From Bacteroidaceae bacterium (GTDB lineage Bacteria; Bacteroidota; Bacteroidia; Bacteroidales; Bacteroidaceae): DNA of 64,000 nt. This document shows, in pieces, positions 2,026 through 32,065 of this stretch; within the stretch, counting starts at the first letter, position 1; every line of letters begins with the position of its first letter. Below the pieces are notes generated by a model, which saw only the letters and a program-made list of their open reading frames with translations, made no database searches and was not told the DNA's origin. The DNA lies in NCBI GenBank assembly GCA_024401275.1, contig JAKSLJ010000012.1, positions 1 to 64,000 on the forward strand. The letters run 5' to 3'. The position numbers were made by a program, and so were the translations under genes.

Positions 2026-3417
2026 TTATTTTGTCAAATAGTTGATAGCATTCTTAGTCATGATGGCGATGTTCTTGTGGAACTTCTCTTCGTAGCCATC
2101 CTCGAATGTGTAAGAGTACCAGTCGTAGCAGCCTGAGCCGATACAGATGATGCCACCCTTACCGTCGTGAGCTGGGTATTCCCATGCTACGATAGCACCG
2201 TCGCCACCAACACCGATGATTCTACCGCCATTGCGAGTTTCCCAGTAACTGTGGCTTGGATAGTTACCCCAGTCGCTACCGATATGGTACTGAGCAGTAG
2301 AGTTAGTGATGTGGTAACCCTTATCTGTACAGTAGATGCGGCCTGTATCGTCGCCATCGATAGTACCTTCGAAGAGTGGGTGAGAAGGATCGTACTTGAT
2401 GAAGTCCCAAGGACCGCCACAAAGTTCTGCGCTGTCCTCGTTGCCACCCCAGCAGTTCTGTGGAGTTGTCCACTCGTCGTCGCCAGTTACGCCGATGAAT
2501 GAAGGGAGGATAGTAGCGTAGCGAGTAAGGAGGAGAGCACCGCCGCGCTCGTAGAAGTCGCGGAGCTGGTTCTTGGCATCAAGAGCCTCAGGAGCCTTCT
2601 GGATGAATGGATCGTGACCATCAACGCCACCGTCCTGATGGAAGTGCCACCACATGATCTTACACTGAGAGATGTCGATAGTACCTGCCTGGAGATCAGC
2701 GAATGAAGCGTACATAGACTCTGGAACATTTGCGAGCATCCAAGTGCAAGCTTCGAGAGCCTCTGGATCGAGCTTAGACATGTCAGAAGCTGCACCGAGG
2801 AAGAGTGCCTTTGGCTTGTCGATAGCGATTACCTTTACAACATACTTGCTTGAAGCAGTGTTGTTTGATACTGTGAAAGTAACAGGCGCAGAGAAGTCCT
2901 GAGGAGCACCGCTGAGAGGATCAACAGTTGCGTTCTTAGAGAGCTCAATAGTAGGGATGGCATTCTTGATGTCAACGCTACCTGGCACATAGACAGTGAT
3001 AGTCTTAGCATCCTGATCAATCATACCGTTGTAGATACCATTGATGACGAATGAGTAGATCTTAGCCTCGTCACGGAGAACAGAGAGAGTCCAGTCGAGA
3101 TACATATCGCCAGCAGCAACGTGGATGTTCTGGTCGGCGCTCATGTCGAGAGTCTGACCCGGTGCAACATTTGCAGTAGCACCGTCAGCAATCTTAAGAC
3201 CTGTAATCTTCATGGCATTTACAGGAGCTGTCTCTGGAATTCTTACTACGATAGAGCGAGAAGCCAAATCGATAGTGCCTTCATAGCCATCAAGCGCAAT
3301 CTGCTCTACAAGGCAGTTGCCGCTGAGGTCGAGTGAGCAGTCATCGTTCTTGTCGCATGATGCGAAAGCGAAGAGCACTGCCACGGCACACATTATATAT
3401 TTATATATTGCTTTCAT
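2026..3417 (-). CDS. DUF4960 surface lipoprotein of PUL 1
   Basis: This 463-residue lipoprotein (Cys21) holds the SusE-like position after SusD. Two Ig-like or DUF5018-like repeats fill roughly residues 25-200. A DUF4960 domain follows from about 205 to the end, with Trp- and Gly-rich motifs (MWWHFHQDGG, GGALLLTRYAT). DUF4960 proteins are found in Bacteroides fructan PULs, where the B. thetaiotaomicron member is a levan-binding surface protein; that role is inferred here. The start at 3417 gives a standard signal peptide. The second PUL encodes a DUF4960 protein with a different N-terminal half. Confidence 0.85.
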   Translation of the reverse strand: MKAIYKYIMCAVAVLFAFASCDKNDDCSLDLSGNCLVEQIALDGYEGTIDLASRSIVVRIPETAPVNAMKITGLKIADGATANVAPGQTLDMSADQNIHVAAGDMYLDWTLSVLRDEAKIYSFVINGIYNGMIDQDAKTITVYVPGSVDIKNAIPTIELSKNATVDPLSGAPQDFSAPVTFTVSNNTASSKYVVKVIAIDKPKALFLGAASDMSKLDPEALEACTWMLANVPESMYASFADLQAGTIDISQCKIMWWHFHQDGGVDGHDPFIQKAPEALDAKNQLRDFYERGGALLLTRYATILPSFIGVTGDDEWTTPQNCWGGNEDSAELCGGPWDFIKYDPSHPLFEGTIDGDDTGRIYCTDKGYHITNSTAQYHIGSDWGNYPSHSYWETRNGGRIIGVGGDGAIVAWEYPAHDGKGGIICIGSGCYDWYSYTFEDGYEEKFHKNIAIMTKNAINYLTK

Positions 3418-3460
3418 TTTTTTATTTATGATGTATGATTTATGATGTATGATTTGTTTG

Positions 3461-3480
3461 CCCTACCGATAACGGTAGGG
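3461..3480 (-). terminator. Hairpin between susD and the DUF4960 gene
   Basis: CCCTACCG and CGGTAGGG form a perfect 8-bp stem with a 4-base loop, 11 bp after the susD stop codon. No strong T-run follows. It may attenuate downstream expression or protect the upstream susC-susD mRNA from 3' decay. A tandem 14-bp repeat (ATTTATGATGTATG twice) lies beside it at about 3424-3452. Confidence 0.5.
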
Positions 3481-3490
3481 AGATAATCAA

Positions 3491-5257
3491 TTACCAATTA
3501 CCGATATTCTGCTTGTAGTTGTTGTTAGAAGCAGAGATCTGGCTGTGTGGGATTGGGAGATATTCGTTCTTGTTGGCAGTGAACTTAGCGCCATCATAGA
3601 TGTTGCAGCGTCCCTTCTCAATATCGAAGTACTCATTGAGAACATTCTCTGCATCGCCCCAGCGAACGAGGTCGAAGAAGCGCTCTGACTCCATAGCGAG
3701 CTCAAGACGACGCTCCATCTTGACAATCTTGAGAGCGTCTTCCTTAGAATATGAGCCACCATCATACTTCTTACAGTAGATCTTAACACCATACTTCACT
3801 GGATAATTGCTGATAGTCTGAGTAGAACCGGCAGCACGCTCACGAATCTTGTTTACGAGGTTTACAGCCTCTCCACCTTGATTGAGCTGCGCGTAAGCCT
3901 CAGCACGCATAAGGATAACGTCAGCATAACGGAAGACGATGCGGTTCATTGAAGACGCCCAGAAAGAACCCTTGATGAGGTACTGGTCGATGAGAGCTGG
4001 GTCAACATTGTGCTTGAGTGTTACGTTGTAACCATAGAGACCACCGGAACGGCTCCAGTTAGAAGACTCGTCCATCATGAAATTAGGGTTGAACATGTAA
4101 GGAAGACCTGGCATACCAACAGTGAGGAAGAGACGTGGGTCAGCATTGTCTGCTGCCATATCGTAATTCTTTGCGTTATAGCTGTCGAGGTATGGACGGC
4201 CCTTGTCGTCAGTGCGGAAAGCATTTACTAGGTTCTGCGATGGCTTGTAGAAGTCGCAACCACCATCTGTTACATTAACGATGTTAGGGCAGATAAGACC
4301 GTAACCGAAGTTAAGGCTACCATACTTTGTACCATCGTTGCGAGAGTACTGAATAGCCCAGAGAGACTCGCAGCCGTTCTCGAACTGCTCTTCAGGACGG
4401 AAGTTGTTGTGGATGTCCTTCTCAAGGTCATAACCACCATCCTTGTAAAGGGCAGGGTCAGTGTATTTGAGAACCTGATTGAGGTCAGCCTCGTTGATAG
4501 AAGTTACCTTATGGCTTGAAGAATCGTCCTGTCGATAAGCTTTGTAAAGGTAAACCTTAGCGAGGAAAGCAGCGCAGGCAGCCTTTGTAGGACGACCCTT
4601 GTCAGCTTGAGTATCAGGAAGAATGCCGAAAGCATATTCAAGATCGTCAGCGATGACTTTCCAACCTTCGTCGTTGCTATACTCTGTGTTTGAAATCTTG
4701 CTATAATCGTCGTAAGAGAGATTAGAATCTATTACGAAAGGAATGTTCTTGAAGAGACGCTTGAGCTGGAAGTGTGCGTAAGCACGGAGGAAATGGAGCT
4801 CAGCAAGACGCTGATTCTTCTGTTTGAAGCTTGCGTCGCAACCCTCTACAGCGTGGATTGCCGCATTAACACGAGAGATAGAGTTGTAGAGGCGAACCCA
4901 GATGTCGTTGAGGTTCCAGCTTGTTGGAAGCACGCCCTGCTCAACCTCGAGCTGATGGAACACGTCACCGTCGTTTGTTGTAGAACCGCCCTTGTAAGCA
5001 TCGTCTGAACGAACATCATAGTTCCAGAGCGAGAAAGAAGCGTTGATATCCTCAGAAGTAGCAAAGATAGCGTATGCTGAGGTCACCTGCTTGTCGGCGT
5101 ATTCAGGAGTGTTGACCTGCTCATCAGAGAGAGTACCCTGTGGCACCTGCTCGCTGAGGAAGTCGGAACATGAGGTGAGGCCCATCGCACCAACTAGGCA
5201 GAGAGAGCCTAACCAAGCCTTCCCAAGGGGAAGGATGTTTATATGTTTTGTATTCAT
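3491..5257 (-). CDS. SusD-family glycan-binding lipoprotein, PUL 1
   Basis: This 588-residue SusD/RagB protein has its lipobox Cys at residue 30 and a typical SusD start (CSDFLSEQVPQG). A TPR-like region with the usual YAHFQL and FLAKVYLYKAY segments follows, and the C-terminal half carries the conserved RRLELAMESERFFDLVRW motif. It caps the SusC transporter at the outer membrane and binds oligosaccharide. Residues 5-17 (HINILPLGKAWLG) are encoded by a repeat element and recur in an unrelated lipoprotein at 12078. The gene lies 113 bp after susC. Confidence 0.95.
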   Translation of the reverse strand: MNTKHINILPLGKAWLGSLCLVGAMGLTSCSDFLSEQVPQGTLSDEQVNTPEYADKQVTSAYAIFATSEDINASFSLWNYDVRSDDAYKGGSTTNDGDVFHQLEVEQGVLPTSWNLNDIWVRLYNSISRVNAAIHAVEGCDASFKQKNQRLAELHFLRAYAHFQLKRLFKNIPFVIDSNLSYDDYSKISNTEYSNDEGWKVIADDLEYAFGILPDTQADKGRPTKAACAAFLAKVYLYKAYRQDDSSSHKVTSINEADLNQVLKYTDPALYKDGGYDLEKDIHNNFRPEEQFENGCESLWAIQYSRNDGTKYGSLNFGYGLICPNIVNVTDGGCDFYKPSQNLVNAFRTDDKGRPYLDSYNAKNYDMAADNADPRLFLTVGMPGLPYMFNPNFMMDESSNWSRSGGLYGYNVTLKHNVDPALIDQYLIKGSFWASSMNRIVFRYADVILMRAEAYAQLNQGGEAVNLVNKIRERAAGSTQTISNYPVKYGVKIYCKKYDGGSYSKEDALKIVKMERRLELAMESERFFDLVRWGDAENVLNEYFDIEKGRCNIYDGAKFTANKNEYLPIPHSQISASNNNYKQNIGNW

Positions 5258-21386: not shown

Positions 21387-21459
21387 ACTTTTTCACTAGT
21401 TTTGTCATGTTTTGCCCTTCCTTTCACCATAAAAAACACGTACAATAAATGAATAAGAA

Positions 21460-21488
21460 GTACAGTTCGTGAAATTCACGGATTGTAC
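21460..21488. promoter_or_regulatory. 29-bp dyad operator upstream of the twin small peptides
   Basis: The dyad reads GTACA-N3-CGTGAA-A-TTCACG-N3-TGTAC. It lies 19 bp upstream of the -33 box. The same dyad at the same distance from -33 precedes the secreted protein gene ending at 31186. It is probably the binding site of an activator shared by the two transcription units; the protein is unknown. Confidence 0.75.
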
Positions 21489-21507
21489 GTTTTGTTTTCA
21501 TAGAGTG

Positions 21508-21540
21508 TTTGTTAATAGCGAAAAGAACTCCCTACCTTTG
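21508..21540 (+). promoter_or_regulatory. Promoter of the twin small-peptide genes
   Basis: A TTTG -33 box (21508-21511) and a TACCTTTG -7 box (21533-21540) are separated by 21 bp. Sequence from about 21440 to 21573 is close to the inverted sequence at 31680-31800, including promoter, early leader and dyad. The leader to the first start codon is about 80 bases. Confidence 0.8.
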
Positions 21541-21625
21541 CATCGTCAAACAAAGAAAATGACACTCAAAACAAACTTAAAACATTAAACTAAAAAACAT
21601 TAACTCATTAAAAACTCAAAACATT

Positions 21626-21754
21626 ATGAAAAAGTTTTTCGCAACATTCAAGAACGCTGTTAAGGCATTAGTAGAAGGCAACACTCAGTTGACACACTAT
21701 CAAGTTCTCTGCCCAGTTTCATGCTACTATATGAACCACACAGCATGGCGCTAA
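21626..21754 (+). CDS. 42-residue peptide of unknown function, copy 1
   Basis: This small gene begins ATGAAAAAG and encodes MKKFFATFKNAVKALVEG, then a middle region, then CYYMNHTAWR at the end. It aligns without gaps to the 42-residue product of the next gene, with 17 identical positions. Shared features are MKK, ATFKN, KA, YQ-x-L, CYY and a Trp just before the last residue. The N-terminal half can form a basic amphipathic helix; there is no clear signal peptide or transmembrane segment. A good promoter, shared operator, paralogous neighbour and terminator support a real gene. A membrane-active peptide, peptide signal or small regulator are all possible. No modification enzyme is nearby. Confidence 0.75.
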   Translation: MKKFFATFKNAVKALVEGNTQLTHYQVLCPVSCYYMNHTAWR

Positions 21755-21760
21755 ACAAAT

Positions 21761-21801
21761 AACCCCCTCCGACTCCCCCACAGGGAGGAGGGAAGTACCC
21801 C
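21761..21801. repeat. GC-rich palindromic element between the twin peptide genes
   Basis: CCCCCTCCGACTCCCCC-ACA-GGGAGGAGGGAAGTACCCC forms an imperfect hairpin of the window-wide C-run/G-run family. It lies seven bases after the first peptide stop. Confidence 0.65.
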
Positions 21802-21861
21802 AAAGCATTAAACCAAAAACATTAACTCAAAAAAATAACACATAAAAAGCAAACCTACATT

Positions 21862-21990
21862 ATGAAAAAGATAAACGCAACATTCAAGAATATACTCAAA
21901 GCAGTAGAAAAAGCCAGCGAAAAGATGGCACAGTACCAGGATCTTGACTCCGCTTTATGCTATTACGCAGCCCGCAGTATGTGGCACTAA
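21862..21990 (+). CDS. 42-residue peptide of unknown function, copy 2
   Basis: This paralogue of the preceding gene also has exactly 42 residues: it starts MKKINATFKNILKAVEKA and ends CYYAARSMWH. The N-terminal half is predicted to be a Lys-rich amphipathic helix. The conserved C-terminal part has YQ-x-L, then CYY and a Trp at position 41. One Cys (position 33) is shared with copy 1, which has an extra Cys at 29. It sits 107 bp downstream of copy 1 and is followed by a terminator, so both are probably one transcript. Function is unknown. Confidence 0.75.
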   Translation: MKKINATFKNILKAVEKASEKMAQYQDLDSALCYYAARSMWH

Positions 21991-22044
21991 GCAGAGAACC
22001 ATAAAAATTGGAGAACTTATCAACACGATATGCCAATAATATCA

Positions 22045-22079
22045 GTCGCCTCCTGCCCGTAAAAAGGACAGGAGACGAC
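22045..22079 (+). terminator. Terminator after the twin peptide genes
   Basis: GTCGCCTCCTGCCC and GGACAGGAGACGAC form a strong, slightly imperfect stem around GTAAAAA. It lies between convergent genes and could serve both strands. Confidence 0.75.
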
Positions 22080-22103
22080 TTCGTTATGTATTGAAAAAAA
22101 CTA

Positions 22104-22700
22104 TCAGTTAACTTGTGGTCTCGCGCCCGGACCGATCATAGGACGACCATTGCCGAACATCTTGCCGTTGCCACGATTGCCACCACGCATACCGCCGTTA
22201 AACTGCATACCCTGCTTGCTGCGACCGTGGAAGCCATTCTTGCCACCGTGGTTTCTCATGCCTACTGACTTCAAGAGGAACTGTGCCTGACGAGGATTGA
22301 GTTCCTTGCAGAACTTATCGAAGTACTTCTCCTGAACATCGAGACGCTTGCGCTCAGCGGCAAACTGTTGCTTTACCTTAGCGCTAACCTCTGCATCTGT
22401 CATCTGCTTTGGAGCTTCAGGCTTCTGCTTGCCAGCCTCTGTAGGGCGAGGATTTCCGAGCCGTCCTTCAGCAGGAAAAGTTTCCTTCATCTCCTTCATA
22501 TAAGCCTCGTAGATAGGCTTCACCTTTGCTGACTGTGCATCTGAAAGCATGAGTTTCTTAGCCACTCTCTGCCACTGCATATCTACCATCTGCTCCTGTG
22601 TAGGACGCTTACGACCATTCTCCTTTGGCTCCTGCTGAGCCATTACCATTGTACTTGCTGAAAGCATCAGCATTGCGATAAATAACTTGATTGATTTCAT
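22104..22700 (-). CDS. Spy/CpxP-like periplasmic protein with a repeat-derived insert
   Basis: This 198-residue protein has a signal peptide (cleavage near VMAQ), a mostly helical, charged middle (MLSDAQSAKVKPIYEAYM; VKQQFAAERKRL; LNPRQAQFLLKSV) and a Gly/Arg/Asn-rich tail. The helical part resembles Bacteroidetes periplasmic proteins of the Spy/CpxP (LTxxQ) type; chaperone or envelope-stress activity is inferred. Residues about 79-87 (GRLGNPRPT) are encoded by a single arm of palindromic family A (22441-22463), inserted in frame between helices. Confidence 0.7.
   Translation of the reverse strand: MKSIKLFIAMLMLSASTMVMAQQEPKENGRKRPTQEQMVDMQWQRVAKKLMLSDAQSAKVKPIYEAYMKEMKETFPAEGRLGNPRPTEAGKQKPEAPKQMTDAEVSAKVKQQFAAERKRLDVQEKYFDKFCKELNPRQAQFLLKSVGMRNHGGKNGFHGRSKQGMQFNGGMRGGNRGNGKMFGNGRPMIGPGARPQVN
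22441..22463. repeat. Family A palindrome arm inside a coding region
   Basis: The sequence equals the left arm of the intergenic element at 29431-29454 (GTAGGGCGAG...CGAGCCG). On the minus strand it encodes RLGNPRPT in frame. The neighbouring bases show no matching second arm. Confidence 0.85.
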
Positions 22701-22860
22701 AATCTTTTTGTTGTTGGTTATTGACTTTAGTTTCTTTGTGCATACCTTTAAGCATGTATTCAGTAGTCCGGATTCTTACGTCGTACAATAATATGAACAG
22801 TCTAGAAGGCCTTAGGTAAAACGGGAGAAAACTAAAAAAAGTTAAAAGACCTTTTACTAG

Positions 22861-25188
22861 TTATTTCGCCGTCACCGTTGCTGCGGTAGCATTTGTAGTG
22901 ACCGTTGGATTTATGAAGAACACATCGTTTACGTTGACATCGCAAGCCATTGGCTTCTCAGTTCCTAGCTTTACAGTTATGCTGCCCTTACCTAGATTCG
23001 GAGCTGTGAGAAGGCTGAGGGAGTTCAACACGTTAGCTGCAAACTTGTATGTGCAGATAGGAGTGCCGGATGTGTTGCAGAGGGTGTAGTAGTAGGAAGG
23101 GGAATAGCTTGATGGCGAAGAGCCGAGATAGTAGCCTTGCGTAGAAGAACCGATGCTCGACGAACCGCCACCGCCCTGCGAACCGCCTGCGCTGACGGCT
23201 ATGCCACCTGTGACGACGATGTAGGAATTGTTGTCGCAGTCCAAGCCTTCCTCAGGAGAGTTCTTTGTGGTATAGGCGAAGACGTTGCCACCGGAGATTG
23301 TTATCGCTCCTGTACGACCATAGTTTGAATCCACAGCATCGTTGCCGTTTGTGTAACAAACCGTTGTGCCGCCTGAAAAAGTGATCTTGCCAGCGGAGTT
23401 GATGCAGTCGTCGTAGCACTGGAAATAGTGCGTGCCACCGCTGATTGTCACCGCAGTCTTTGACTCAAGACCTTCAGCGCCATCGGTTGCCGTGGTGACA
23501 TAAAGGCTGCCACCCTTGATGTAAGCAGCACCTTCAGCCTTTATAGCCTTAGACGAAGAACCAGAGCTTGCCGAGCCTCCACCACCAGGACCACCAGGCC
23601 ATCCACCGCCCCAGCCTCCGCCGGGACGACCACCGCCACCAGTGTTGCCGCCCGATGTGTTGCCACTGAGTGAAGTGCCTGTAGTGGCAATCTTCATTAC
23701 AGGACCTGTACCGTCAGCCTTGCCGATGACCAGTTCGCCATCAGCCTTCAAGCCCTTGCCGCCAGTACCTGTCATCTTGATGTCGAAAGTACCGCCTTCG
23801 ATGGTGATGTTCTTGTCGCAGTTGATGGCTTTCGCTGTGTAGTTATCTGACGTTCCAGCTTGACCGTTGCAAGAATTTACTATTGTATAGTTGCCGTCGG
23901 TAATGAGGATGCTCTCGTCAGCCGAGATGGCGCGAGAGGCATTGCCCGTGGTAGCCGTAACATTCAGCGTGCCACCATTGCCAACATAATGACCAGTCTT
24001 TACGGCAGAGCAGTATGAGGCGTCTGTGCCTTCGAGAACCATCGTACCGCTGATGTTGGCAGTTACCGTGCCACCATTGAGCGTAAATGTACCGATGTTC
24101 TCACTGTTGCCGACCTTAAAACCCTTGCTTGCTGCTCCGCTTGCGGTAATGTTTACCACCGTGCCATCGTCAGCGATAGTCACGTTGCCGTTAGCATCAA
24201 TGCCACGACTGTCGTCGCCAGTAGCAGTGATAGTGATGTTCGTAGGCATCTTTGAGCTGTTGATGGTCACATCAGTGTCAGCCTTTATGCCCGCAGCACC
24301 AGCGGCTGTAACCTCAATGTTGTATGTGCCGCCCTGGATAAGTACGCTGCCGTCTGGGTAGTCCTCTTCGTATGGTTCTACGCCGCTAAGCTCTGCCTGA
24401 ATGCCATCACCACCAATGTTCTTGATGCTTACGGTATAGCCGTTAGAGAGGAAGTATTGTCCGCAGTGGATGCCATCGCTTGCCGCACCAAGGATGTTGA
24501 TTTTGCCCTCAGACTTCTTCAGCTGGACATACTCCTTGGCAGAGATGGCGTGCTTGGTGTTGCCTGTGACATTAAGCGTACCGGTCTTGTCTATCTCAAG
24601 GTGTCCCTTGCAGTAGAGCGCAGCCTTCTGCTTGCCGCCAGTGGCATCAACGAGGTTGTTCACGGTACCTTTCTTCAGTTCCATGGCAATGCGCTTACCG
24701 CACTCAATGTCGATGGCAGCACCCTTTTTGCTTGTAATGCTTACGCCATTGAGCACGAAGGTTGCCTTGTATGCACCATTATAAAGGAACGAACCGTTAG
24801 TGGTTTCGCCCGAGAGTGTGAAGGTAAGCTCGGTAAGCACGTTGCTGTTGTTTACTGTTACGTATGCACCGTCTGCCGTAGCTGTCACGCCTTCCATAAG
24901 GAAAGGATTGACAACAGAAGCAGTCTCGCCATCGTATTTAACGGTGAAGGCTGCTGGCATCTCGCCGTAAGAGAGGCTTATGCCAGTGGCAGCAACATCC
25001 ACGAGATTGCCGTCATTGCTGGCAATAGTCAGAAGAGAACCGTCTTCGCTGAACTTCAGGGAGTCGATGGCAGCCGTAGAGACAGCATCAGTCACTCCGT
25101 CTGCGTGCTTAATCATAAGCGCACGCTGCGCCATTGCCGCATGAAAGGCAAAGGCAGAGAATAGTATTATGGATAGAATTTTTTTCAT
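22861..25188 (-). CDS. Cthe_2159-type carbohydrate-binding beta-helix protein, secreted
   Basis: This 775-residue protein has a signal peptide (AAMAQ). Residues 25-80 resemble the N-terminal domain common in Bacteroidetes surface proteins. A long repetitive region (about 90-640) has recurring G-x-I-x-A-x-G and SGGT/IEGGT turns (GIKADTDVTI, GIDANGNVTI, GLKADGELVI), typical of the Cthe_2159 carbohydrate-binding right-handed beta-helix family. A Gly/Ser-rich segment (about 510-550) interrupts the helix. The C-terminal ~70 residues form a separate beta domain. It is the last gene of an operon headed by a LytS/LytTR pair. Binding to plant polysaccharide is inferred from the family. Confidence 0.75.
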   Translation of the reverse strand: MKKILSIILFSAFAFHAAMAQRALMIKHADGVTDAVSTAAIDSLKFSEDGSLLTIASNDGNLVDVAATGISLSYGEMPAAFTVKYDGETASVVNPFLMEGVTATADGAYVTVNNSNVLTELTFTLSGETTNGSFLYNGAYKATFVLNGVSITSKKGAAIDIECGKRIAMELKKGTVNNLVDATGGKQKAALYCKGHLEIDKTGTLNVTGNTKHAISAKEYVQLKKSEGKINILGAASDGIHCGQYFLSNGYTVSIKNIGGDGIQAELSGVEPYEEDYPDGSVLIQGGTYNIEVTAAGAAGIKADTDVTINSSKMPTNITITATGDDSRGIDANGNVTIADDGTVVNITASGAASKGFKVGNSENIGTFTLNGGTVTANISGTMVLEGTDASYCSAVKTGHYVGNGGTLNVTATTGNASRAISADESILITDGNYTIVNSCNGQAGTSDNYTAKAINCDKNITIEGGTFDIKMTGTGGKGLKADGELVIGKADGTGPVMKIATTGTSLSGNTSGGNTGGGGRPGGGWGGGWPGGPGGGGSASSGSSSKAIKAEGAAYIKGGSLYVTTATDGAEGLESKTAVTISGGTHYFQCYDDCINSAGKITFSGGTTVCYTNGNDAVDSNYGRTGAITISGGNVFAYTTKNSPEEGLDCDNNSYIVVTGGIAVSAGGSQGGGGSSSIGSSTQGYYLGSSPSSYSPSYYYTLCNTSGTPICTYKFAANVLNSLSLLTAPNLGKGSITVKLGTEKPMACDVNVNDVFFINPTVTTNATAATVTAK

Positions 25189-25198
25189 AATGCCCCCC

Positions 25199-25597
25199 TT
25201 ACTTTACTAAAACCTTCTTTGACTTGTCGCCAACGGTAATCACATAAATGCCCTTCTGTGCTGGCATGGCAAATGTTTCGGTATTGCCCTTTGACACCAC
25301 CTTACCCTGAAGGTCTGTTATTACATACGCTTCGGCTCCAGAGAAGATGCTGCTGATGGCAGTAGGCGCCTGACCGAGTTCCATCACAATGATGTCATCG
25401 AGTGCGAAGACCTGCTTCGTACCGTCCTTCATTTTCACCACCATATCGGATTCCGTAAATTTGATGCTCAGCAGTTCCGACAAAACCACTGCGCTCTCGC
25501 CGTCGCTCTTGCTGATCTTGAGCGCGGGAACATCATCGGCAAGGCAGCTTCCAGCCACCATAATCGCCAATGCTGTTGATAAAAGTTTCTTATTCAT
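25199..25597 (-). CDS. Small secreted protein with a sorting-domain-like C terminus
   Basis: This 132-residue protein has a signal peptide (GSCLA). A central beta-rich part (about 25-75; LKISKSDGESAVV, IKFTESDMVV, DDIIVMELG) is similar in layout to the first domain of the downstream 775-residue protein. The end (about 90-132; VITDLQGKVVSKG, GIYVITVGDKSKKVLVK) resembles a short type A C-terminal domain of the type IX secretion system. It lies 10 bp before the 775-residue gene and is probably co-transcribed. It may be an accessory surface protein; function unknown. Confidence 0.65.
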   Translation of the reverse strand: MNKKLLSTALAIMVAGSCLADDVPALKISKSDGESAVVLSELLSIKFTESDMVVKMKDGTKQVFALDDIIVMELGQAPTAISSIFSGAEAYVITDLQGKVVSKGNTETFAMPAQKGIYVITVGDKSKKVLVK

Positions 25598-25666
25598 ATA
25601 TATATGAGATTTGGGGGTTGTTTTGGTTTTTGGTTGTTTGTCACTATCTCGATTTAGTGTTTTGTG

Positions 25667-27520
25667 TTAGTTTGCCTTTACGGATGCGGATGTGCCGCCA
25701 GAAAAGGAAGTGGCGTTCTCGTAGAGATTCATCCAAAGCTGGCCACCCTTTGGTTCTATGCCAGAGGCAAGCGAGTAGGTTCCACTGGTGAGTTTCGGAG
25801 AACTAATCAGCAGCGAAGTGCCATTGCATATTCTCGGGAGCTGGAACACCGCGAGTGGCGTACTGCCTTCGGTAAGCGCAATGTATGTTCCGGCATTGCC
25901 CGTCAGTGTGGTTGAGACGTAATGACCGCTGTATCTTGCGCCCATACCGCCTCCCATACCGCCACCGATACTTATCACCGTTGCATTGGAAATGGTAAAA
26001 GTGCTGTTTTCAAGGTCAATGCCTTCCTCGCTCCCCATAGTGCTTGCTATGCCAATCATGACACCGCCCGTAGCAGATATGCTGCCATTGGAATCTATGC
26101 CGTCGCCCACTCCATTTGAAACGGAGAAGACACGACCGCCAGACACTTCAATTGCCTTTGCTGCATTCATTCCATCGTCGTATGCACTTATCGCCACATT
26201 GCCACCAGTGACACTCAGCGTAGCCTTGCTCTCTATGCCTTCGCCATTGGTACCAGAGGTGCGCACAAAAACATTTCCGCCGGAAATCACCACATCCATA
26301 TCGCCCTTGATGCCCTTTGGCGAGACGGATGTATCGGCATTTGAGGATGCATTGCCACCCCAACCGCCTGGACGCATATTATTGGAAGACGAAGTGCCAT
26401 ACATATTGCCTGTGGTTATGATATAGATATCGCCACCTTTGATATGGAGATTCTGATCACAAGAGATGCCCTTGCCACCTTGTCCTGTGCTTTTGAGGCG
26501 AAGTTCACCACCAGTAACTACAAGCGTGCTATCGGTCTTTATGCAGGCTGCACCCGAAAGGTCGGAAGAATCTGAGGCGTCAACACCGCCTTTGGTTATT
26601 GCTACTATGCGACCTCCGTCGAAGTTTCCTGCACCATCGCTCGTAAAAGCTTTCTTGCCGGCACCTTCCGTCTGGATATTGAACACACCACCCTTCACCA
26701 CAATAGCATCGTTCGCCTTTATGCCATGACCTGCAGAAGTACCAGACTTGACCTGAATAGATATGCCTGGACGGAAGAAAAGCGCATCGTCACTTGCAAC
26801 ACCGCTCTTTCCAGCGGCATTGTTGCAGGCTATCTCAAGCGAACCTTTACCACTGAATCGCAGATCGTCCTCGCTGAAGAATACCGCCTTCTCGTCTTCT
26901 CCATTTATCTTCTTGTAGGCAGCCGAAGCGCCATCTGCCAACACTGACTTGCCTTCAAGTTGCACAAAGCAGTTGCCATTCTGGATATTGATGGCAGCAC
27001 CCTCAGGATTGGTTATTGAGACATCAGAGAGCAGCAAAGAAAACTTCTTCTCGCTATATATGCGCAAGCTTCCATTCGGAGTTGTTCCATTAACCTTCAA
27101 GGTAAGACCTTTGCTGTGAGCCTTAACCGTTACATCAGCACCATCGGCAGTTATGGTATCACCCTTGACGATGTTGTCGGTCACTACCCCACCAGCGGCA
27201 AAGGTAATGGTTGTGGTGTTCTTTGGTTCGAAGTTGTTTTCTATGTATTCATTATAGTAGGGATCGCTTTCATCAGTTGGTATAACTTCCGTTTCAGACA
27301 GAGGGCTACTGTCCATTACAACATCAAAGCTGCTGAGCATACCAAGGTCTATCAGATTGCCTGACATTCCGCCATTGCCTCCAAGGCCACCTTGTCCACC
27401 AGGACCAAAGCCAGGTCCACCGTCTTGCTGCCAATCGCCAAAGGGATTATCGGTTGTGCAAGCGCAGAGCAACGACAGAAAAGATGCCGCAAACAGGATT
27501 AGTTTTTTATGAGTTCTCAT
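25667..27520 (-). CDS. Cthe_2159-type carbohydrate-binding beta-helix lipoprotein
   Basis: This 617-residue lipoprotein (Cys21, LLCAC) has a Gly-rich linker (about 30-55), then a Cthe_2159-like repetitive beta-helix region (about 90-560) with turns such as GIKANDAIVV, GISCDQNLHI, GIKGDMDVVI and GIESKATLSV. Its start overlaps the end of the LytTR regulator gene by 14 bp, so translation is probably coupled. It and the related 775-residue protein bracket a small secreted protein. A cell-surface polysaccharide-binding or adhesion role is inferred; the Clostridium thermocellum family founder binds polysaccharide. Confidence 0.75.
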   Translation of the reverse strand: MRTHKKLILFAASFLSLLCACTTDNPFGDWQQDGGPGFGPGGQGGLGGNGGMSGNLIDLGMLSSFDVVMDSSPLSETEVIPTDESDPYYNEYIENNFEPKNTTTITFAAGGVVTDNIVKGDTITADGADVTVKAHSKGLTLKVNGTTPNGSLRIYSEKKFSLLLSDVSITNPEGAAINIQNGNCFVQLEGKSVLADGASAAYKKINGEDEKAVFFSEDDLRFSGKGSLEIACNNAAGKSGVASDDALFFRPGISIQVKSGTSAGHGIKANDAIVVKGGVFNIQTEGAGKKAFTSDGAGNFDGGRIVAITKGGVDASDSSDLSGAACIKTDSTLVVTGGELRLKSTGQGGKGISCDQNLHIKGGDIYIITTGNMYGTSSSNNMRPGGWGGNASSNADTSVSPKGIKGDMDVVISGGNVFVRTSGTNGEGIESKATLSVTGGNVAISAYDDGMNAAKAIEVSGGRVFSVSNGVGDGIDSNGSISATGGVMIGIASTMGSEEGIDLENSTFTISNATVISIGGGMGGGMGARYSGHYVSTTLTGNAGTYIALTEGSTPLAVFQLPRICNGTSLLISSPKLTSGTYSLASGIEPKGGQLWMNLYENATSFSGGTSASVKAN

Positions 27521-28247
27521 TTATACGCTGAATATTTATCGTTCTTTCGTCAATGTATTTCTGCACCTCGTCCTTATACATATCGCTGATTGGGAGAAGG
27601 GTGTCATCACTAAGCTTAATACGCATCTTGGAAATCTCCTGTACTTTATTCATATTAACTATATAGGAGCGATGAATGCGAAGGAAACTGTCGGTAGGAA
27701 GGATGTCAGCAAGCTTCTTCATACTCATCAGGAACATAAGCTTCTCGCCGTTGTCCAGATGAAGTTTCAAGTATTCACTCTTTGACTCCACATAGACAAT
27801 CTGCTTTAGACTGACACGCACGGTGCGGTAGTCGGCCTTTACGAAAAGCGTGTCGCCTGCAAGACTCTGTTCCTTCAGCGCAGCCTTCTCCAGTTCATAC
27901 TGATGCTTCACCTTGGCAGCCGACTTCTGGAACTCAGGCATTCCGAAAGGTTTCAGCAGATAGTCAATGGCATTTACCTTGAAGCCTTCGAGAGCATACT
28001 GGCTGTATGCCGTCGTGAATACGATGAGCGGCGGATCTGCCAACGAGCGAACAAAGTCGAGACCATTCAGATCGGGCATGTTGATATCGACAAAGATGGC
28101 GTCAACCTCTTCCTCGTCCAACACTTTCATAGCCTCAAAGGCATCTTGGCAGGCGGCGATCAGGTGCAGGAAAGGCGACTTCTCTATCATCGTACGGAGT
28201 TGAAGGAGTGCCAACGGCTCGTCGTCTATTGCTAAACATTTTATCAT
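27507..28247 (-). CDS. LytTR-family response regulator
   Basis: This 246-residue protein has a receiver domain (1-120; DDE at the acidic pocket, phospho-acceptor Asp54 in FVDINMPD, Lys in YLLKPF) and a LytTR DNA-binding domain (about 140-240; LFVKADYRTVRV, SFLRIHRSYIVNM). It is the partner of the kinase ending at 28297 and probably controls the surface-protein operon it belongs to. Confidence 0.93.
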   Translation of the reverse strand: MIKCLAIDDEPLALLQLRTMIEKSPFLHLIAACQDAFEAMKVLDEEEVDAIFVDINMPDLNGLDFVRSLADPPLIVFTTAYSQYALEGFKVNAIDYLLKPFGMPEFQKSAAKVKHQYELEKAALKEQSLAGDTLFVKADYRTVRVSLKQIVYVESKSEYLKLHLDNGEKLMFLMSMKKLADILPTDSFLRIHRSYIVNMNKVQEISKMRIKLSDDTLLPISDMYKDEVQKYIDERTINIQRINENS

Positions 28248-28296
28248 TTCATTTACAATTTACCATTTACAATGTACAATTTGAAAGCGACTACAC

Positions 28297-29415
28297 TTAT
28301 CCCTTCAATTCAAGTGTTACACGATATTGTTCCGGATTGTCGTCTTCTACATTAAGCTTATAGTCGCCCTCGTATATCAAATCCAGACGCTTGCGAACAT
28401 TCTCCAAACCAATGCCGCCACTATCATTGCTTTGTTTCAGCAGATGGCGACTGTTACAGCATTCAAAATAAATTGTCTTGTTGTCTTCCCCCACCGCAAG
28501 AGCTATGCGTATAAACGAAGGCTGCTGATAGCTCACGCCATGCTTGAACGCATTCTCAATGAAGGTTACAAGAAGCAGAGGTGGTATCTGTATGCCATTT
28601 GTCACGGTTGGCATCTGGCTAACTATCTCCACCTTATCGTTGTAACGCAGTTTCATCAGCGAGAGATACTGCGTAATGAAGTCTATCTCTTGCGACAGTA
28701 GCACCATCGGACTGTTACTTTCGTATAACGTGTAGCGCATCAGTTTCGACAGTTCCACAAGACTTCGCTTCGCCTTCTCCTGGTCAATGTCTATGAGCAC
28801 ATGGATGTTGTTGAGCGTATTCATGAAGAAGTGTGGATTTATCTGATATTTCAGATAGTCTAACTCCTGCTTTAGGTGCTGCTGTTCCAATTCCGTAAGT
28901 CTGCGACGCTGCTCCTGTGACTTCATCATAGCGTCTGCTCCAAGGTTCACGCCGAGCATCAGAAGGGCTATTATCAGGCGCGCAATATCGGGAGGCGCCA
29001 ACAACGGATGTCTATGAGGCTTGCGGAAGTCAGGATGCTCTGGTCTCTTTTCTGAACGCTCAGACTTCTTTTTTTCACATTCAGAGCGATTGGCATGTTC
29101 TATTATTGGTCTTCCATGATGAGGATCGCGTGGAGTATTCCTAGTAAACAGTGCAAAGCCCGAAAGCATCACCACCACAGTCAGCGCATATATCCAATAG
29201 CGTTTGCGGGCATAGAGCAGTGGGATGAGCAGATAATGATGCAAAAGAAAGAGCAGGAAGAATGCTGACAAGAAGGTATATGTTCTGCCTAAATCGTGCC
29301 AGTCGAACTGCAAGTTCTCTGCCACATTGTAGTAATACCGCAACAATAATGGACAGACAAAAACGACTGCCCAAATTGCTGCAATACCAATATTAACAAC
29401 CTTATTAGTCTTCAT
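28297..29415 (-). CDS. LytS/YehU-type sensor histidine kinase
   Basis: This 372-residue protein has several N-terminal membrane helices (about 8-26, 47-68, 72-92, 145-163) with a charged loop between the last two, then a His_kinase domain with the phospho-acceptor His195 in YQINPHFFMNTLNNI and an ATPase domain (FIENAFKHGVSY, GGIGLENVRKRL). A longer frame to 29532 exists, but its first 39 codons run through family A repeat 29431-29505, so the start at 29415 (MKTNKVV) was chosen. It pairs with the adjacent LytTR regulator; the stimulus is unknown. Confidence 0.92.
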   Translation of the reverse strand: MKTNKVVNIGIAAIWAVVFVCPLLLRYYYNVAENLQFDWHDLGRTYTFLSAFFLLFLLHHYLLIPLLYARKRYWIYALTVVVMLSGFALFTRNTPRDPHHGRPIIEHANRSECEKKKSERSEKRPEHPDFRKPHRHPLLAPPDIARLIIALLMLGVNLGADAMMKSQEQRRRLTELEQQHLKQELDYLKYQINPHFFMNTLNNIHVLIDIDQEKAKRSLVELSKLMRYTLYESNSPMVLLSQEIDFITQYLSLMKLRYNDKVEIVSQMPTVTNGIQIPPLLLVTFIENAFKHGVSYQQPSFIRIALAVGEDNKTIYFECCNSRHLLKQSNDSGGIGLENVRKRLDLIYEGDYKLNVEDDNPEQYRVTLELKG

Positions 29416-29430
29416 TCCTGTTTTTTGTAT

Positions 29431-29505
29431 TGTAGGGCGAGGATTTCCGAGCCGCCATTTAGGTTTTATTGTGCGGTGAAACGGCTCGGAAATCCTCGCC
29501 CTACA
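29431..29505. repeat. Palindromic element, family A, best complete copy
   Basis: Arms at 29431-29454 and 29482-29505 are perfect inverted copies over 24 bp with a 27-bp loop. It lies immediately upstream of the kinase gene. Confidence 0.9.
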
Positions 29506-29601
29506 TTTTCCTTTCCCCATAAAGCAATGCAAAGGTAATAATTTTCATCTTATCTCAAAAATATAATCAACGAAATGAGCTTTTATCTCAATGTTTTAGC
29601 T

Positions 29602-30819
29602 TCATATTGCCCTCAGAGCCTGATACTTTCGTGACAGGAATGCTTGTGCAAGGAAAACAATTGAGATGACTACTCCGACCATGTATGGAGCATTGGCAGA
29701 GCCGATTGCCTCGCTGATAGGACTTACTATCAATGGAGATGTAAACTGTCCCATATACATTGCAGCAGATATCAATGGCATGACGGTTGTTGCCGCATCC
29801 TTTCCGCCCTTTATGGAGGCAATGGTGTTCAGATACGGCATGCCAATGCCATTGGCTAAGCCTACGAAGAATGCACCAGCAAGAAGAAGTGGTGTGGATA
29901 CTCCGATAGCAAACATAGCATAGCCTATGATGAATGTCAGCGGAGCCATGTATTTGACCGTTCGGCTCATATTGCTCATTATCCACCCGAAGACAATGCC
30001 GACAATGGCTGCAACGACATCCAAACCAACCATTATCAGCGTGATGTCATTGCCTGTAAGAGCTTCATTAGCCCGAGCGGTCATGGCAAAGTTTGTTGGG
30101 AATATGAAGAATAGCAACATCTGCAGATACATGCCAACCACAGATGGCGCAAAGCGCATCAGCGATGCTATTGGCCGCCCTTCTTTCTTGCGGGCTTGGG
30201 TTATCCCCGTCTCACTTTCGTAATAATCCGGGGCATCGTCCATTGTTGACGCTCCAGTCTTTAGTTTCTCGTTCGGGAGGTTTAATGCCACCAACATAAG
30301 TGCTGGTAGCCCAAGAAGATACACAAGGAAGGCAAAGTTCCAACTGATGTTGGCTAGAAGACCGCTGAGAAGAGTTGCTATTACACCACCGAGCTGGCTC
30401 ATGAATGCACCAAGTCCCATCAGACGAGGCTGGTCTTCTGGCGGGAAATAGAACGAAAGAAGTCCTGTAGAAAGAGGCATAATCATTCCTACACTGACAC
30501 CTAGAAGTGCTCTGAGGGCGAGTATTGTCCAGATGTCTTCTACAAGGAATGCTCCTGCACCGAACACGACATACATAAGTAATCCTGAGACAGCGATAGT
30601 CTTTGTGCGCATCATTTGGCACAACAAAGGAAAAAACAAGTTTGTGATAATGATAGTAAGCGCTGGCAAACTGACTATCAATTGTACAAGAAGATTGCTC
30701 TTGTCAGCAAAATGCGTTCTGATTACACCAAGTGCAGGAGCCATTGCAGCACCCGCCATAACGGTAAGAAGTGAGATAGACAGGATGGTGAATGTAAGTT
30801 TTCCGTTTTTCTTTTTCAT
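29602..30819 (-). CDS. MFS transporter
   Basis: This 405-residue protein has about 12 predicted membrane helices and MFS signatures (FLLQMMRTKTI-type loop 2-3, RALLGVSVGMIMPLSTGLLSFYF in helices 4-5). A charged central loop (about 185-215) separates the two halves. The family resembles drug or sugar exporters; the substrate is not evident. It stands alone, with a long leader from its own promoter. Confidence 0.88.
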   Translation of the reverse strand: MKKKNGKLTFTILSISLLTVMAGAAMAPALGVIRTHFADKSNLLVQLIVSLPALTIIITNLFFPLLCQMMRTKTIAVSGLLMYVVFGAGAFLVEDIWTILALRALLGVSVGMIMPLSTGLLSFYFPPEDQPRLMGLGAFMSQLGGVIATLLSGLLANISWNFAFLVYLLGLPALMLVALNLPNEKLKTGASTMDDAPDYYESETGITQARKKEGRPIASLMRFAPSVVGMYLQMLLFFIFPTNFAMTARANEALTGNDITLIMVGLDVVAAIVGIVFGWIMSNMSRTVKYMAPLTFIIGYAMFAIGVSTPLLLAGAFFVGLANGIGMPYLNTIASIKGGKDAATTVMPLISAAMYMGQFTSPLIVSPISEAIGSANAPYMVGVVISIVFLAQAFLSRKYQALRAI

Positions 30820-30850
30820 AATAATTATTGATTGAAGATTCTTTTATGGA

Positions 30851-30872
30851 GGTGTCGTGCCCTCACGACACC
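30851..30872 (-). promoter_or_regulatory. Leader hairpin of the MFS gene
   Basis: GGTGTCGTG and CACGACACC form a perfect 9-bp stem with a 4-base loop, 32 bp upstream of the start codon. It is in the ~135-base leader, so it could affect translation. It may instead be a repeat remnant. Confidence 0.5.
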
Positions 30873-30961
30873 AATACTGGAGTTTTACAGCTCTACCAAG
30901 CTGCAATTTCTTCAGCATCTACAATCCTGTACGAACCTTGGAAAACCTACGAAATGCGCTG

Positions 30962-30992
30962 CAAAGTTAATGATTTTCTCTTTCTTACCAAA
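30962..30992 (-). promoter_or_regulatory. Promoter of the MFS gene
   Basis: On the minus strand TTTG (30989-30992) and TAACTTTG (30962-30969) are separated by 19 bp. Confidence 0.65.
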
Positions 30993-31185
30993 ATAAAATC
31001 AACGAAAAGAACTTTAATCTCAACGATTTTTATGAATTAAATCATAACCGCTAAAGACTAATGGTAACTCTGCTTACGCCTGAAACACAACTGAAAAAGG
31101 CTAATAGCTAACGGTGCCATTACCCATTAGCTATTAGCCATTAGCCTCAACTTGAGCACATGCGAAAGTTGAATATTCTTACCTG

Positions 31186-31593
31186 TTACCAATTAAATAT
31201 TTTGTCGAGCAATTTGCCGACGTTGTCGCGGTTTGTGACGCCGCTGTCGCGCCATGTTCTGCCGTTGTTGCTATAAGAATCTCTTCTGCTATCTCTACGC
31301 ATAGCGTCAGCGCAGCGATCCATCTTACGGTCTATTTCACTATTAGGTATGATGTTCTCATCAATGTTGTTATGCTCGCGGGCACTCTTATATGCCTTCA
31401 TTGCTTCCTCATAGTGACCGAGACGAAACTCGTCGTCACCCTTGTTCATGTAGTCCTTGACATGCACCTCGTGGATTCTGTGGTTAACGGCCTTATAGTC
31501 GCTTCCATCCAAGGTTGACTGTGCGTTTACTTCTGTTACGTTTACTGTGAACATTGCTGCTACGAGAGCTGCGATAGCGAATAACTTTTTCAT
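31186..31593 (-). CDS. Small secreted TPR-like protein
   Basis: This 135-residue protein has a signal peptide (cleavage near VNAQ), one tetratricopeptide-like helix pair (about 50-75; MNKGDDEFRLGHYEEAMKAYKSA) and a basic, Arg/Asp/Ser-rich C-terminal part (RRDSRRDSYSNN). One TPR unit is enough for a small binding surface but not a full superhelix. Its promoter and upstream dyad are shared with the twin 42-residue peptide genes, so it probably responds to the same signal. Function unknown. Confidence 0.75.
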   Translation of the reverse strand: MKKLFAIAALVAAMFTVNVTEVNAQSTLDGSDYKAVNHRIHEVHVKDYMNKGDDEFRLGHYEEAMKAYKSAREHNNIDENIIPNSEIDRKMDRCADAMRRDSRRDSYSNNGRTWRDSGVTNRDNVGKLLDKIFNW

Positions 31594-31700
31594 AATGTTT
31601 GAGTTTTTAAGTGTTAATGTTTTGAGTTTAATGTTTTTAATTTTTAATACTAAAGTTTAAAGTTTGAAGTTTTGAGTGTCATTTTCTTTGTTTGACGATG

Positions 31701-31733
31701 CAAAGGTAGGGAGTTATTCTCATTCTTTACAAA
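31701..31733 (-). promoter_or_regulatory. Promoter of the secreted TPR-like gene
   Basis: On the minus strand TTTG (31730-31733) and TACCTTTG (31701-31708) are separated by 21 bp, identical in layout to the twin-peptide promoter. The leader is about 100 bases, with repeated A/T-rich short motifs. Confidence 0.8.
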
Positions 31734-31752
31734 CACATTATGAAAACAAAAC

Positions 31753-31781
31753 GTACAATCTGTGAATTTCACAAACTGTAC
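31753..31781. promoter_or_regulatory. 29-bp dyad operator, second copy
   Basis: The dyad reads GTACA-N3-TGTGAA-T-TTCACA-N3-TGTAC and lies 19 bp from the -33 box, as at 21460-21488. Sequence outside the dyad (about 20 bp further upstream) is also conserved between the two sites. Confidence 0.75.
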
Positions 31782-32065
31782 GTCTTATTCATTCTATGTA
31801 CAGAAAAATGGAGCCACCTCAATCCATAAATAATCAAAAAAACAGTCAACTCGTTTTAGAATAAGCAGAAAAGTAGTCAACCAAAATCGTCAAAATACAT
31901 CTCGCGTTTTCAAATGACGTAAATCATCAACTAACACCGCATAACACCGCTTTTTCATGATTACACAACAACAATGTGGAAATTATTTTATAATTTTGCA
32001 TTTGGAGGTATTGTGCCACTCGTTACAAACGATACTAGGCACATAAACATTGAAGCAATTGAAAT
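31782..32065. other. Intergenic region between divergent genes
   Basis: This AT-rich stretch contains the conserved outer part of the dyad region (to about 31800) and a plus-strand -7 box TAATTTTG (31991-31998) for the glycosyltransferase gene, without a clear -33. Nothing else is recognisable. Confidence 0.5.

Follow-up and report, generated by a model that had tools for sequence, protein, structure and literature searches.

A four-half-site operator before about twenty genes of a Bacteroidaceae genome, probably served by a partner-switch-controlled AraC-type activator

Introduction

Partner switches of the RsbU-RsbV-RsbW and SpoIIE-SpoIIAA-SpoIIAB kind are encoded as a set, comprising a PP2C-type phosphatase with a sensor, a GHKL kinase and a STAS protein. 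Class II activators of the AraC/XylS family use half-sites made of two boxes about 10 bp apart, and the last half-site lies over the -33/-35 region of the promoter. One recent report describes CapS, a homodimeric repressor that joins STAS to a winged helix-turn-helix (HTH) and is encoded beside immune operons, together with CapK, an HTH-STAS-GHKL protein (PMC13373217). Here we describe a palindromic element in a stretch of 64,000 nucleotides from a Bacteroidaceae bacterium (contig JAKSLJ010000012.1 of assembly GCA_024401275.1, positions 1 to 64,000 of the forward strand; hereafter the window), where one copy precedes two genes for twin 42-residue peptides and another precedes a gene for a secreted TPR-like protein. 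A preliminary description of this DNA had proposed a two-site regulon, defined by a 29-bp dyad and a promoter and served by an activator. The element is probably the operator-promoter of a 20-site regulon under an AraC-type activator with partner-switch control, a STAS-AraC protein encoded at C58:3388-4794. We infer binding, activation and phosphorylation from the anatomy of sites and proteins and from their co-occurrence; operon structure and signal are inferred too. Sites, spacing, half-sites, co-occurrence, gene neighbourhoods, domain assignments and one cassette exchange, by contrast, were observed.

An operator array at a fixed distance from its promoter

Both window sites match GTACANNNYGTGAAWTTCACRNNNTGTAC without mismatch, and 100 shuffled controls gave no dyad match even at 3 mismatches. 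At each site the dyad is followed by 19 bp, TTTG, 21 bp and TAnnTTTG, exactly as first described. The two copies do lie on opposite strands, the genes behind this window pair are indeed unrelated, and the claimed conservation of about 130 bp corresponds to 107 of 126 bases equal in an ungapped comparison from -25 to +101 relative to the dyad start. Identity is at background beyond about -20 to +110, except for 16 of 20 bases at +150 to +170.

The number of sites had been underestimated. A dyad scan of the window's own genome (G000, 3.2 Mb), allowing up to 3 mismatches, returned 20 sites rather than two, and the reversed control pattern returned none. A DNA profile (R1) built on 19 of these sites recovered the same 20, its scores falling from 42 bits, for the site cut by the end of contig C58, to at most 17 bits when opposite-strand palindrome hits are left out. 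TAnnTTTG lies exactly 44 bp past the dyad at all 19 readable sites, the 20th being cut by the contig end. Ten of the first genes at 19 sites have lipoprotein-like leaders; the others, judged by eye, comprise six with NAQ-type or cut signal-peptide starts and three short-peptide loci. The products include an outer membrane protein barrel and a DUF4468 protein (two copies each), TPR-like proteins, one PTP-like and one large lipoprotein, and a set of eight further lipoproteins, each about 200 residues long, which by eye look paralogous. Very probably the repeated palindrome serves this gut bacterium as a control site before about twenty genes, mostly for secreted proteins.

The nested dyad stands as an observation, but it is only the core of the full element, an array of four half-sites (H1 to H4) in the order forward, forward, reverse, reverse (F-F-R-R), each with the 14-bp form GKACA-N4-RTGAA. 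Half-sites were counted in 70 of 71 rows from the window genome and its relatives, a second, reverse-strand reading of the L060 site having been dropped. The distance from H1 to H2 is 20 bp in 39 sites, 17 bp in 29 and 18 bp in 2, the gap between H2 and H3 is 1 bp, and H4, which overlaps the -33 position, starts 8 bp past the dyad in 65 of the 70. The outer half-sites were no part of the search pattern; H1 matches at least 9 of 10 consensus bases in 66/70 sites against 0.2% in shuffles, and H4 at least 8 of 10 in 64/70 against 3.2%. The -33 position reads TTTG in 25 sites, TCCG in 24, TCCA in 7, CACG in 5 and TACG in 5, with four single cases.

Over the 82 distinct dyads in all fetched loci, the promoter lies at 44 bp in 76 and at 45-46 bp in 3; two dyads run off the sequence end and one lacks a promoter. 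A dispersed mobile repeat, which the preliminary description expected to leave many dyads away from promoters, was rejected on this single promoterless case. A CRP- or Rex-like site was set aside because its consensus spacing differs.

Among the genomes scanned, the array is rare outside the window genome and found in Bacteroidales metagenome-assembled genomes (MAGs) only. It occurs in 2 of 150 genomes of a genus sample (G000 and G096), in 1 of 393 of an order sample (the window's own) and, with one mismatch allowed, in 19 of 300 of the family sample of G544 (Candidatus Physcocola equi). When 84,980 species genomes were scanned for the exact pattern, 44 stretches came up, all from MAGs, whose titles name Bacteroidales, Bacteroidaceae, Prevotellaceae, Paludibacteraceae, Candidatus Physcocola or Colivivens; horse or ruminant appears as the source in many titles and no source in some. 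A viral origin was rejected, given no exact pattern match in viral_contigs.

A candidate regulator that co-occurs with the array

Two Paludibacteraceae loci, L051 from Candidatus Physcocola equi and L066 from another member of the family, have the operator in front of a gene whose product is a membrane protein ending in an AraC-type domain. G000 has a single close relative of this domain, 61% identical (next best 35%), encoded on the minus strand of C58 by a gene that adjoins the 20th operator and whose start codon was picked for conservation in five relatives. The 468-residue protein starts with a STAS domain of the anti-sigma-factor-antagonist type, shows a weak likeness to APH kinases in its middle region and ends in an AraC-type double HTH at about residues 364-468. 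This last domain, the hallmark by which AraC/XylS membership was judged, matches HTH_18 with E 1.4e-16 in the STAS type and 1.9e-16 in the membrane type, and SoxS, ToxT and MarA chains were also matched. The STAS part matches SpoIIAA/RsbV by sequence and predicted fold; its Ser57 aligns with SpoIIAA Ser58 and is invariant in all five STAS-type regulators, which gives them the phosphorylatable position of a partner-switch protein. No STAS-AraC protein was described in the titles or abstract openings searched, a coverage that mostly excludes subscription journals.

The five regulators of the window's lineage have the order STAS-(APH-like)-AraC with 0-2 hydrophobic segments by a simple hydropathy count, whereas 12 from Paludibacteraceae are of the membrane type with 4-6. 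All 17 have the motifs TNRHYVSD and DHTFRRLFK unchanged, even though the domain of one type matches that of the other at only 57-61% identity; we take these motifs to be the recognition helices of the AraC-type domain. In genomes that lack the operator, near paralogues carry SNRTYLSA with SEYTFRRIFK, or TNRTYLSR with SISTFRRVFF.

The domain was found at 99-100% identity in the same two genus-sample genomes as the operator, while the other three genomes past E 1e-18 were only 39-40% identical; in the order sample, domain and operator were both present in 1 of 393 genomes, that of the window. Of 22 genomes with the operator that were tested, 16 carry the domain at 57-99% identity, the next level being 39%, and in G556, one of the six without it, an N-terminal fragment of a membrane regulator fills a short open frame. 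The G544 family sample yielded 22 of 300 genomes past E 1e-15, comprising 16 close relatives (66-100% identity or fragments) and 6 at 32-41% that were not counted as the regulator. On this basis 15 of the 19 genomes with the operator carry the regulator, against 1 of the 281 that lack it (Fisher p 8e-21, uncorrected for kinship), or 14/19 against 0/281 without contig-end fragments; the lone operator-free carrier, G682, has a 47-residue fragment at a contig start. G620 and G625, which were sampled by family and not via the operator, carry both, and are taken as near relatives of G552 and G551 because their sites look alike. For 12 of 16 genomes, and also for the window's own, the DNA retrieved with the regulator gene (3.5-12 kb) includes an operator. 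The earlier proposal of an operator and promoter with an activator draws its support from anatomy and from co-occurrence with one AraC-type domain. That domain is very likely the binder of the array.

A predicted partner switch and the proposed mechanism

The STAS-AraC gene of G000 is convergent with genes for a Cache-HAMP-SpoIIE phosphatase (RsbU-like; SpoIIE E 1e-43) and an RsbW-like kinase (RsbW match, single GHKL domain). Kinase and PP2C-type phosphatase are both encoded alongside the regulator in three of the five genomes with the STAS type (G000, G096 and UBA1746). No sigma-factor gene was noticed among the open reading frames neighbouring the regulator, most of which were not profile-scanned, and a target may lie elsewhere. 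Contigs C55 and C58 have an overlap of exactly 55 bases, which makes it probable that the TPR-phosphatase-kinase row is under the operator at C55:6398; the link is likely rather than proven because the TPR gene of the window, which encodes a shorter paralogue of the C58 TPR protein, has 71 of 75 leader bases in common with it. In G096 the operator and a TPR-phosphatase-kinase-STAS row, including a lone STAS gene, are contiguous, and in G544 and G550 the operator precedes the regulator gene itself. Partner-switch control in the window's lineage seems rather likely.

In the proposed mechanism, each half-site, with its two boxes about one helical turn apart, would take one AraC-type DNA-binding domain. 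Since the last half-site covers the -33 region, protein bound at H4 could replace or assist the -33 contact, as in class II activation. The phosphatase, through its Cache sensor, HAMP and SpoIIE domains, and the kinase would set phosphorylation of the STAS serine, which would set the activity of the fused DNA-binding domain, so that the switch would have an AraC-type activator as its output instead of a sigma factor. A membrane protein would take the place of this input in the Paludibacteraceae, where DNA-binding domain and operator are the same. Operators before the TPR-phosphatase-kinase-STAS row (G096, likely G000) or the regulator gene (G544, G550) would provide feedback.

A wider model combines three parts: an RsbU/RsbW-type switch acting on an AraC-type activator via a fused STAS domain, with no sigma factor between; a second family that kept the DNA-binding domain and operator and swapped the input to a membrane protein; and a regulon recruiting secreted proteins, possibly the twin peptides, by operator-promoter-leader-signal-peptide cassettes. 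The chances that this whole model holds are about even.

Several observations weigh against a partner-switch-controlled activator of the array. H4 is the weakest half-site, H2 and H3 are partly conserved through being the search pattern, and the regulator promoter of L066 has TAATTTTA as its -7 box instead of TAnnTTTG. The APH likeness of the middle region falls under the Pfam cut-off, and this region is unresolved in the structure model of the STAS-AraC protein (mean predicted local distance difference test, pLDDT, 69.8; predicted template modelling score, pTM, 0.39). UBA1716 has the kinase only, and G543 has neither partner on a 7.8-kb contig. No regulator match was found in four of the 19 operator-bearing family-sample genomes (G547, G548, G554 and G562), nor in G555, all of them MAGs, and no site at up to 3 mismatches in the stretch round the regulator in UBA1716, UBA1746, G561 and G553. 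Related genomes are not independent of each other, the genus search had stricter filters, and the best 12 candidates per genome were scored in the order sample and the best 5 in the family sample.

Two side observations concern the regulators. The middle region of the STAS type (L101:3388-4794, minus strand) reads HGN where APH kinases usually have the catalytic motif HGD; on account of this replacement it may, tentatively, be a pseudokinase. In L066, a YitT/DUF2179 membrane protein gene (3288-4157) stands beside the membrane-AraC regulator with its own operator at 3185-3213.

Alternative explanations

The regulator could be a repressor instead of an activator. Protein bound at H4 would sit over the -33 box and might keep polymerase away, and CapS, the nearest published STAS-DNA-binding protein found, is a repressor (PMC13373217). 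However, a fixed distance separates -33 from three of the four half-sites, which lie upstream of it, and 45 of 70 promoters have no TTTG at -33; as an argument from placement, this suggests dependence on an activator. Repression is unlikely, and the bound regulator is with good probability an activator.

The 110-260 bp unit could also be mainly a recombining promoter-leader cassette spread by gene conversion, its fixed spacing reflecting copying and not selection for a regulator. In G096, 251 of 263 bases (95%) from the dyad to the signal-peptide end are common to the TPR gene and a second gene (L107:5361-5622, L109:718-980), whose following codons differ: only 2 of the 15 remaining bases are equal beyond the apparent cleavage site (by eye). 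Only 29 codons of the second gene precede the contig end; it is taken as DUF4468 because its start matches the G000 DUF4468 gene. The G096 TPR protein is 70% identical to that of G000, and their leaders differ (31/72 bases). In this one pair, operator, promoter, 5' untranslated region and signal peptide can move as one unit, and such exchange would explain why unrelated genes have about 130 bp in common; 8 of the 19 G000 first genes also look like paralogues by eye. Nevertheless, between families the spacer sequence diverges while the half-site boxes and the 44-bp distance are kept (in an alignment limited to rows that had a promoter at 42-48 bp and at least 30 upstream bases), and the regulator domain tracks the operator through the G544 family sample (15/19 against 1/281). 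Copying and binding are compatible, and copying alone is insufficient for this co-occurrence. A cassette without a regulator is improbable; the best reading is a regulon of mostly secreted proteins that grows partly through promoter-plus-signal-peptide cassette exchange.

It is about as improbable that some other co-inherited factor binds the array in place of the STAS-AraC or membrane-AraC protein. The comparison covered the regulator domain rather than whole gene contents, and five operator-bearing genomes gave no regulator match. Nonetheless, the DNA-binding domain is the very part common to both regulator types and is encoded near operators in 12 of 16 genomes, and the half-site geometry suits an AraC-type domain. 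Lastly, a recombination site of an invertible promoter, suggested by a palindrome present on both window strands, is highly improbable and was rejected, as the promoter is always on the same side of an asymmetric array at a fixed distance, and neither window site has the second, flanking array copy that two inverted repeats and either orientation would entail.

Twin peptides and regulon content

The features of the two window loci are collected in Table 1.

Table 1. Operators, promoters and first genes of the two window loci
Feature	Position	Strand	Basis
Operator 1, half-site H1 (forward)	21440..21453	+	Alignment and half-site count
Operator 1, core dyad (H2 21460-21473 forward; H3 21475-21488 reverse)	21460..21488	+	Exact match; genome family of 20
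Operator 1, half-site H4 (reverse), overlaps -33 box	21497..21510	+	Half-site count
Operator 1, TTTG -33 box	21508..21511	+	
Operator 1, -7 box TACCTTTG, 44 bp past dyad	21533..21540	+	
Twin peptide 1, 42 residues	21626..21754	+	
Twin peptide 2, 42 residues	21862..21990	+	
Operator 2, half-site H1	31788..31801	-	Alignment and half-site count
Operator 2, core dyad, promoter on minus strand	31753..31781	-	Exact match
Operator 2, half-site H4, overlaps -33 box	31731..31744	-	Half-site count
Operator 2, TTTG -33 box	31730..31733	-	
Operator 2, -7 box TACCTTTG	31701..31708	-	
Secreted TPR-like protein, 135 residues	31186..31593	-	TPR_2 E 4e-4, under Pfam cut-off

Peptides of this family are found again behind the operator, as twins in G096 and as a single copy at C34 of G000, and all five hits to the family among the 150 genus-sample genomes fall in the two operator-bearing genomes. 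Non-synonymous divergence (dN) is below synonymous divergence (dS) in all ten pairwise comparisons, and the hydrophobic moment marks an amphipathic, basic N-terminal helix. No signal peptide was seen by eye. Pfam gave no family for window peptide 1, the C34 peptide or the first C15 peptide, and one meaningless hit for window peptide 2 (E 0.075). An envelope-related role would be a guess. The operator puts these small peptides into a regulatory context.

A divergent second short-peptide pair (40 and 37 residues; L012:388-510 and 720-833, minus strand) lies behind the C15 operator, the one that diverges most among the intact operators of the genome. In the Paludibacteraceae loci L049, L053, L059 and L079, the operator stands before proteins of 45-57 residues with a C-terminal hydrophobic stretch, by eye unlike the window peptides. 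Genes for a PTP-like lipoprotein follow the operator in G000 (Pfam) and in G542 of the Paludibacteraceae (56% identity over 329 residues), and by eye in G543, G546 and G558; a second lipoprotein is common to G096 and a Colivivens MAG (32% identity over 163 residues, signal peptides included). Near-identical gene copies stand behind separate operators at L008:452-1186 and L014:125-858 (98.6% over 735 bp) and at L008:2459-3552 and L011:1008-2101 (95.6% over 1102 bp), owing to recent duplication, gene conversion or a MAG artefact.

Comparison with known systems

With a candidate activator, an operator of four parts and a predicted phospho-switch, the orphan palindrome can now be tested as a regulon. 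If the proposal is true, partner switching in Bacteroidales extends to a DNA-binding activator, the sensor has been swapped while DNA-binding domain and operator were retained, and the regulon has grown by promoter-plus-signal-peptide cassettes.

One of the closest known systems is CapK-CapS, described as having a STAS domain fused to a DNA-binding domain, a SpoIIAA-equivalent serine and a GHKL kinase resembling anti-sigma-factor kinases, all with counterparts here (PMC13373217). Unlike CapS as described there, with its winged HTH, the present regulator has an AraC-type C-terminus (HTH_18, fold) with an inserted region, and the system has a single-domain GHKL kinase, often an RsbU-like phosphatase, and 20 scattered promoters. 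As in the RsbU-RsbV-RsbW and SpoIIE-SpoIIAA-SpoIIAB systems, genes for a sensor-bearing phosphatase, a GHKL kinase and a STAS protein are grouped, by domain matches; here, however, no sigma-factor gene was noticed in the fetched loci, and the STAS protein bears its own AraC-type domain. With class II AraC/XylS activators the array has in common the box spacing within each half-site and the overlap with -33, whereas it comprises four half-sites in the order F-F-R-R, and the rest of the candidate protein consists of STAS or membrane segments in place of a cupin-like ligand domain.

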